Part shown: positions 20,135 through 28,621 of the stretch, piece by piece
Numbering within the stretch: position 1 is the first letter of the stretch
How the letters are laid out: each line of letters opens with the position of its first letter
NCBI GenBank assembly: GCA_018302085.1
Contig: JAGWAF010000026.1
Span: 1-34,410 of the forward strand
Direction: 5' to 3'
DNA length: 34,410 nt
Origin: Candidatus Woesearchaeota archaeon
GTDB taxonomy: Archaea > Nanobdellota > Nanobdellia > Woesearchaeales > JAGWAF01
Translations under genes and position numbers: made by a program
The notes under the pieces: generated by a model
Databases searched by the model: none
What the model was told of the DNA's origin: nothing
The model's input: only the letters and a program-made list of their open reading frames with translations

Positions 20135-20230
20135 TATAGCAAATGACTTTAATAATCGTAGCTTTGGCAAAGTCATTTGCTTATTAGGAAAAGACGTGAA
20201 ATCTACGAAAATTAATGTCTTTTCCTATAG
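20135..20230 (+). repeat. Tandem double hairpin with complementary loops (element K2, copy 1)
   Basis: HP1 AGCAAATGACTTT/AAAGTCATTTGCT (20138-20181, 18-nt loop). HP2 TAGGAAAAGAC/GTCTTTTCCTA (20185-20227, 21-nt loop). Loop complement TCGTAG (20156-20161) / CTACGA (20203-20208). Confidence 0.9.
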
Positions 20231-21108: not shown

Positions 21109-21247
21109 TGGGCCCGTCGTGATTCGAACACGAGACCTCTCGATCGTTGAACCTTTGTTCAAGGAGCAATGGTTTATCAGTCGAGCGCTCCATTGCCCTC
21201 ACTCCTAACACAGTGTCAGGGAGTGGTCCAGGCTAAGCTACGGGCCC
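21109..21247 (-). tRNA. tRNA-Ile (GAT) interrupted twice: D-loop insertion plus 30-nt intron at 37/38
   Basis: Acceptor GGGCCCG/CGGGCCC; T-arm TCGTG-TTCGAAT-CACGA; D-stem GCTT/GAGC; anticodon stem CTCGA/TCGAG, loop CTGATA|A. Intron AACCATTGCTCCTTGAACAAAGGTTCAACG fits a bulge-helix-bulge. Extra ~33-38 nt in the D-loop contain the stem CACTCC/GGAGTG. Confidence 0.85.
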
Positions 21248-21250
21248 AAG

Positions 21251-21336
21251 CGTCCCCAGCCGGGTTCGAACCGGCGACCTGTCGGTTTCTACGATAAACG
21301 TAACAGCCGACCGCTCCGCCGTTAAGCTATGGGGAC
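21251..21336 (-). tRNA. tRNA-Asn (GTT) with 14-nt intron at 37/38
   Basis: Acceptor GTCCCCA/TGGGGAC + G; anticodon arm GTCGG-CTGTTA[CGTTTATCGTAGAA]A-CCGAC; T-arm CCGG-GTTCGAA-CCGG region. TATA-like TTTATAAA on the minus strand at about 21370. Confidence 0.9.
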
Positions 21337-21446: not shown

Positions 21447-21701
21447 ATGGATTACGATTTAGAACTTGACAACGTTGTTGAAAAAATTAGAAAAGAGCAT
21501 GCTCAAACGGTTTGCATACAGCTTCCGGAAGGCTTACGTCCTCTCGCCGCAAAAATAAGCGCTGAGTTGGAGCAAAAAACTGGCGCTACAATCATGATCT
21601 GGGCGGGTAGTTGTTACGGCGCATGCGATCTCCCTCTTGAAGTTCAGCGACTAGGAGTAGATCTTCTTGTTCAGTGGGGTCACAAGGAATGGATTTACTA
21701 A
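21447..21701 (+). pseudogene. N-terminal fragment of Dph1/Dph2-like diphthamide synthesis enzyme
   Basis: IQLPEGLRPLAAKISAELEQKTGATIMIWAGSCYGACDLPLEVQRLGVDLLVQWGHKE, then stop; the family normally continues for >200 residues. Confidence 0.75.
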
Positions 21702-21952
21702 ATGTCTGGCAGTGGATTGCCACGATACTCATTCTTGTTGGTAGTATCCCTCTTGGTTATTTGCTTGGAAAGATTGCAAAAGAAGAGTTAAAAGAGTTAA
21801 AAAAAATTTTGAACGTAGTTTGCGTACTTTTCTTTATCGGCTTCTTTGCAAGTCTTGTCTGGCTCTTTTTACATTTAACTTTTTACGCCCTCTACCTCAC
21901 GTTCACGTTTATTTTTCTTCTCGGATTACTGCGCGGAAGCTCATATAGATAA
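21689..21952 (+). CDS. Small membrane protein
   Basis: MDLLNVWQWIATILILVGSIPLGYLLGKIAKEELKELKK..., 2-3 hydrophobic helices. Confidence 0.5.
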   Translation: MDLLNVWQWIATILILVGSIPLGYLLGKIAKEELKELKKILNVVCVLFFIGFFASLVWLFLHLTFYALYLTFTFIFLLGLLRGSSYR

Positions 21953-22035
21953 CTGCGCAACTTATAGCCTATTTGGCGCAGTTATCTAATAAGTAAACTG
22001 CGTGTACAAGTAGGCTATATCCTACGCAGTTTACT
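21946..22035. repeat. Tandem double hairpin with complementary loops (element K3)
   Basis: HP1 TAGATAACTGCGC/GCGCAGTTATCTA (21946-21988, 17-nt loop). HP2 AGTAAACTGCGT/ACGCAGTTTACT (21992-22035, 20-nt loop). Loop TATAGCCTA (21963-21971) complements TAGGCTATA (22011-22019), extendable to 13 bp (21963-21975 with 22007-22019) including one G-U. Confidence 0.92.
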
Positions 22036-22063
22036 ATATCATACAAAATAAATATTATAAACA

Positions 22064-25497: not shown

Positions 25498-25593
25498 CTA
25501 TAGGAAAAGACATTAATTTTCGTAGATTTCACGTCTTTTCCTAATAAGCAAATGACTTTGCCAAAGCTACGATTATTAAAGTCATTTGCTATA
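25498..25593 (-). repeat. Element K2, copy 2 (exact reverse complement of 20135-20230)
   Basis: Base-by-base comparison: all 96 positions identical. Confidence 0.95.
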
Positions 25594-28055: not shown

Positions 28056-28390
28056 TAAATCTTGGTGTAGCGTTTGGAATGGTGGCACCTTACTATAATC
28101 TCCTATTTGTTCTCGTTGTTGTTTTTCTTTTTATCAAACTCTTCAGGGAAAAAACTTCACGCACATTCATGATGCCCTGGGAGCTTTTGTTCATGATTAT
28201 TTGCATCTATATTTTTGAAGAGGTACTCACAGTGCTTCGAATGGCGGGAATCATTTCTATTCCAATCCATATCAACGGATTTTTTGAATTAGCCATTTCT
28301 ATCCTTGGGTTGTACATGATTTTTGTGCAAAAGAAGCATATCAAGAAAACGTATGAAGTGCATCACGAAGCTCACAAAAAGAAAAAATAG
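28043..28390 (+). CDS. Membrane protein, unknown (similar layout to the preceding gene)
   Basis: Overlaps the upstream ORF; LLFMIICIYIFEEVLTVLRMAGIISIPIHING parallels WLIIALVLFAVEEVFGALKSFGIFSTPYLTH. Confidence 0.6.
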   Translation: MVQIVNLGVAFGMVAPYYNLLFVLVVVFLFIKLFREKTSRTFMMPWELLFMIICIYIFEEVLTVLRMAGIISIPIHINGFFELAISILGLYMIFVQKKHIKKTYEVHHEAHKKKK

Positions 28391-28438
28391 AGGACTTTGA
28401 AAAACCCCTTGATAAAGATTTTTTCGAAGTAATCTGCC

Positions 28439-28518
28439 AGAAGTTTGAGCAAATTGAGATGTTACTCAAACTTCTCTATCAGAGGTTTGAACAAATATAA
28501 TAGGTTATTCGAACCTCT
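28439..28518. repeat. Tandem pair of related hairpins (K4), loops not complementary
   Basis: AGAAGTTTGAG-15 nt-CTCAAACTTCT, ctatc, AGAGGTTTGAA-16 nt-TTCGAACCTCT (one G-U). Confidence 0.7.
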
Positions 28519-28621
28519 CAATAGTTTTTATTGAATGATTATTTCTATTATTTTTTTTATTCTTGTGGTTTTTTTTATCAGGTTCCTTCGCTAGGCTCCT
28601 TCCCTACTCTCGCTCCTTTTT

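Follow-up and report, generated by a model that had tools for sequence, protein, structure and literature searches.

Given a stretch of DNA that can fold into two neighboring hairpins or into a single long one, and whose hairpin loops can also pair with each other, which of these structures has been kept in evolution, and what does it serve? This question is raised by K3, a double hairpin in the genome of a Woesearchaeota archaeon. All positions below refer to the window, that is, the whole stretch of 34,410 nucleotides that was analyzed. Counting a TA dinucleotide on each side (21944-21945 on the left and 22037-22038 on the right, taken from pairs of empty and filled sites to be the two copies of a target duplication), K3 spans the 95 bp from 21944 to 22038, and its 91-bp core, TAG...CTA, runs from 21946 to 22036. 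On the + strand, hairpin 1 has the 5′ arm TAGATAACTGCGC (21946-21958), a loop (21959-21975) and the 3′ arm GCGCAGTTATCTA (21976-21988), with all 13 base pairs formed (100%); hairpin 2 has the 5′ arm AGTAAACTGCGT (21992-22003), a loop (22004-22023) and the 3′ arm ACGCAGTTTACT (22024-22035), with all 12 formed (100%). By direct reading, positions 21963-21975 of loop 1 (TATAGCCTATTTG) are complementary to positions 22007-22019 of loop 2 (CAAGTAGGCTATA) at 13 of 13 positions, 12 of them Watson-Crick pairs and one G-T.

The two hairpins and the complementarity of their loops had been pointed out in a sequence-only reading of this DNA, and both are real. The limits given there were close to the true ones, 21944-22038 being the unit that is repeated. 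It was also right that K3 overlaps the stop codon of the preceding ORF (21674-21952, which terminates inside the element), and that a broken dph2 fragment lies upstream: the 84-aa ORF at 21447-21701 encodes a truncated diphthamide synthesis protein that matches only positions 1-56 of the 302 in PF01866 (diphthamide synthesis family). The position of K3 relative to dph2 is, however, incidental, because K3 is a multi-copy mobile element.

A search of the host genome with the K3 region, also suggested in that reading, returns 11 places, of which nine hold full copies that are 97-100% identical and two hold part of the element. The nine full copies share abrupt common boundaries, the flanks are unrelated, and the boundaries read TATAG...CTATA in nearly all. 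Seven of the nine lie outside any open frame of at least 100 codons spanning the empty site; as for the other two, one sits at the 3′ edge of an open frame, and one, on contig C20, interrupts a gene for aminoacyl-tRNA editing (PF04073). When that gene is rejoined with exactly one TA, it encodes an intact 156-aa protein (PF04073 match, E-value 2e-32), and the frame is not restored if zero or two TAs are kept. Insertion therefore duplicates the TA, and what it adds is 91 bp plus one extra TA. Elements nested in one another in other DPANN genomes support the same duplication: at one locus (L166) a single element is found in an interrupted and an uninterrupted copy, and elements of other families at three more (L106, L107 and L160) also provide empty and filled pairs. 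One family has the 3-bp TNA instead of the 2-bp TA. Both sides match in 11 of the 13 cases listed, and the middle base varies in step (TTA/TTA, TGA/TGA, TCA/TCA), which indicates a true staggered duplication.

K3 is multi-copy, with sharp ends, unrelated flanks, a target-site duplication and terminal inverted repeats (TATAG..AACTGCG and CGCAGTT..CTATA), all of them features of a MITE. It is made of two inverted versions of a single end of approximately 45 bp, each forming a hairpin of its own. The motif AACTGCG occurs in all four arms, and in relatives a motif of the type AAYTGCG is likewise common to all four. The reading that we favor, and which we consider probable, is that K3 is a recently amplified, MITE-like, non-autonomous element whose folded DNA would be recognized by an enzyme acting in trans.

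The element is not private to this genome. With a covariance model derived from 27 elements, we find matches in 57 of the 371 phylum genomes that were sampled, and among the matches listed all 95 positions are covered. Searching 353 genomes of the order for the stem pattern gives relatives in 21; in named genomes, the matches listed include Woesearchaeota, Pacearchaeota and Aenigmatarchaeota. The viral contigs, plasmids and phages that were searched gave no match. Collecting loci resulted in 71 distinct TA-bounded double hairpins that fall into 22 sequence clusters. The length from TA to TA is exactly 95 bp in 45 of the 71, and 94-96 bp in 62; since lengths of 86-102 bp were accepted, the search did not force this peak at 95. 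Families with quite different stems have this length of about 95 bp in common.

One genome (G353) has 52 match segments to a single family. Among them are 23 copies that are complete or almost complete, and the fact that 16 of these are letter-identical over 95 bp implies a recent amplification. At several loci of this genome (L102, L106, L110, L162, L187) we also observe guests in the loops that have entered at identical TA positions (near 30 and 76 of the element). Composites with guests of different length are present at unrelated loci, and therefore either the composites move or these sites are hot spots. Two further observations are recorded here. In one copy (L202, 1967-2060) the loop of hairpin 1 is inverted relative to sibling copies, as though the hairpin had flipped. 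And single hairpins of the type TAGGTAATTGCG...CGCAATTACCTATA occur in Lachnospiraceae and other Clostridia (L114, L122, L123, L133, L172, L193).

The window itself contains other double hairpins. A second family has a 95-bp copy with TA at both ends at 20135-20229 (+ strand; stems AGCAAATGACTTT and TAGGAAAAGAC, loops sharing CGTAG/CTACG) and an inverted copy at 25499-25593 (− strand), with further full copies on contigs C66 and C20, and partial matches on C40, C37 and C47. A probable relative at 28388-28523 (+ strand, approximate limits) has three consecutive hairpins of the AGAGGACTTTG family, with stems ACTTTGAAAAA, AGAAGTTTGAG and AGAGGTTTGAA; similar triple elements adjoin the K3 copies on C50 and C10. 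The only Rfam matches in the window are two tRNAs, and K3 has no match in Rfam. On the − strand, visual inspection of positions 21110-21250 suggests a tRNA that carries an insertion, adjoining the Rfam tRNA at 21251-21336; ARAGORN calls neither of the two.

Which fold, then, is kept? Thermodynamic folding finds K3 far more stable than shuffled sequences (z about -8: -8.2 as single-stranded DNA, against 200 dinucleotide shuffles, and -7.5 as RNA). More informative is the alignment of 27 sequences, in which the arms of each hairpin covary: 94.6% of cells are paired in hairpin 1, with 7 of 13 pairs changed on both sides, and 92.4% in hairpin 2, with 7 of 12. Judged from these alignments, both hairpins are maintained by compensatory changes. 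The dinucleotide that follows TAG is free to vary, and there the match within a hairpin is 0.89-0.94 versus 0.35-0.61 for swapped partners, while between hairpins it is at chance or below. Since these positions match within and not between hairpins, a symmetry of the whole element is no explanation, and base pairing fits the pattern better than reading by a protein does. The simplest reading would combine a sequence motif that is read by a protein with hairpins that must form.

The sequence-only reading had also suggested that K3 could switch to one long imperfect hairpin, and here the alignment does not agree. Pairing between arms of different hairpins is found in 76.7% of cells versus 77.0% when shuffled. 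We have rejected the long foldback as the selected structure: it is without covariation support, and at the free dinucleotide it pairs no better than chance. Single-strand folding that disallows pseudoknots nevertheless gives the long form as the fold of minimum energy, both for K3 as RNA and for its 103-nt context as DNA. Across 39 elements, the double hairpin is the minimum-energy DNA fold, to within 0.5 kcal/mol, in 29.

The complementarity between loops is a weaker signal. Using 22 cluster representatives, the pairing of an element's own loops has a mean of -5.4 kcal/mol versus -4.0 kcal/mol for swapped loops (p 0.0014), with some noise added by a few hairpin pairs, joined automatically, that extend over two neighboring elements, as in cluster c2. 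Aligned loop columns are 65.4% paired, versus 29-46% when slid. The excess persists in 40-41 elements outside model building (p 0.0029 and 0.0014), and its average size is modest, with 9.2 vs. 8.5 positions matched. Among homologs, the complementarity is thus above chance in two sets, and weak or absent in several families, such as clusters c0, c17 and c20. From these sequences, it appears to be a genuine tendency that is pronounced in K3 and weak in other elements, and it could partly reflect symmetry, given that the element carries one end in two inverted versions with a common motif.

How would such an element move? In the mechanism that we propose, a putative transposase or recombinase acting in trans would insert the TAG...CTA core of 91 bp at a TA, which is duplicated. 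The enzyme would recognize the ends as folded DNA, either as a cruciform or as a single strand, and it may read the common motif (AACTGCG in K3) in all four arms. The pairing between loops could keep both ends next to each other, as a built-in synapsis. The idea that the mobilizer recognizes folded DNA has good support as far as the hairpins go, and is tentative with regard to the contact between loops. What counts against the proposal is the weak or missing loop pairing in several families, the search for a matching transposase, which found none, and the one family with a 3-bp TNA in place of the 2-bp TA.

The strongest competitor is an ordinary MITE that depends on a conventional DDE transposase, IS630/Tc1-mariner-like for TA and IS5/Harbinger-like for TNA, which would bind four alternating double-stranded sites; in this view, the inverted symmetry accounts for both the hairpins and the loop complementarity. 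A TA duplication and TAG...CTA ends suit such transposases, the AAYTGCG-type motif in all four arms co-varies between hairpins, and TA-ended elements of about 100 bp have precedents in the RUP and Correia-type repeats (PMC2229807). Symmetry of the whole element does not explain a free dinucleotide that matches within each hairpin and not between them. For an IS630/Tc1-mariner origin in particular, the TA duplication fits, but one family has TNA. The search for the enzyme does not help it either. In the host genome, neither the IS630-type DDE_3 (PF13358) nor DDE_Tnp_1_2 nor Y1_Tnp (PF01797) has a match, and DDE_Tnp_1 gave one match, an interrupted frame. Of 21 element-bearing genomes, 7 have DDE_3, in no case with matching ends, and the other 14 give no match. 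Searches of related genomes with PF13358, PF01609, PF13586 and PF01797 report no transposase gene flanked by the ends of the element, and about 1.1 Mb of collected loci, which come from incomplete drafts, showed no autonomous transposon with these ends. When we looked for element halves with a transposon between them, the short separations examined were nested small elements, and some of the longer ones were pairs of separate copies. The drafts being incomplete, a missing transposase match is not proof of absence. On balance, we regard the conventional MITE as somewhat unlikely.

A derivative of IS200/IS605-type elements (Y1, HUH) or of REP/BIME, in which the enzyme cuts single-stranded hairpin ends, would explain why the hairpins come in pairs at the ends and why structure is conserved at the DNA level. 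Like those elements, K3 has hairpins at its ends, probably as the recognized feature. Unlike them, these elements have a true target duplication of 2-3 bp, TNA in one family, and IS200/IS605 elements are not known to make a staggered target duplication. Moreover, the Y1 transposase has no match in the host or in several other element-bearing genomes (PF01797 is not matched in G000, which is the host, G001, G353, G206, G216 and G217), among them the genome where a single family has 23 full copies. We find this origin very unlikely.

More improbable still is an RNA element (a terminator, something riboswitch-like or a small RNA) acting on the flanking genes. K3 is very stable as RNA and lies downstream of an ORF, but its copies are at unrelated loci, one of them interrupting a gene, and there is no Rfam match. 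The wobbles in the stems also speak to this question. In the set oriented by similarity to K3, so that no model sets the orientation, we count 8 G-T and 13 A-C, with no excess of G-U, and this points to DNA rather than RNA as the molecule on which the stems would be maintained. A count of 24 G-U vs. 9 A-C, from a set oriented with the covariance model, was discarded because the model itself favors G-U.

Integron attC sites are recognized as folded single strands, with variable sequence and fixed geometry, and these elements share the variable sequence and fixed geometry, but we give an attC-like recombination site almost no credence, given that by direct reading the arm ends carry GTTATCT and GTTTACT in place of the GTTRRRY box, and that the insertions are scattered over TAs in many contexts and not gathered in cassette arrays.

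Returning to the MITE-like element recognized as folded DNA, its closest known counterparts are RUP, Correia/NEMIS and ERIC, bacterial MITEs of about 100-150 bp, mostly without coding capacity, that also have TA-terminated inverted ends, a target duplication and multiple copies, and that are mobilized in trans or by unknown enzymes (PMC2229807). Those elements fold end to end as one long stem-loop, whereas the ends of K3-type elements are separate hairpins with complementary loops, their length is almost constant despite very different sequences, and their hosts are DPANN archaea. The CIR repeats of Caulobacter and Brucella resemble K3 in having two inverted-repeat arms and a linker, and in being conserved across genera; they differ by a GANTC motif and by the lack of established terminal inverted repeats or target duplication, and their description mentions no loop-loop complementarity (PMC2229807). 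In the open-licence literature that we searched, there is no description of such elements in DPANN archaea, and within that literature the double-hairpin anatomy and the hosts of this MITE-like element are new as far as shown. One could go further and propose a distinct class of structure-recognized mobile DNA, geneless elements of about 91 bp with hairpin ends joined by loop pairing that insert at TA or TNA in DPANN archaea by means of a recombinase of an unrecognized type. This bolder proposal is, in our judgment, rather unlikely.

DPANN genomes are small, yet some carry dozens of these elements; with 16 of them letter-identical in one genome, something has moved them recently. The elements account for interrupted genes and for repeated hairpins in DPANN genomes, and their near-constant length, their differing sequences and the pairing kept at free positions make them a testable case for the recognition of folded DNA.
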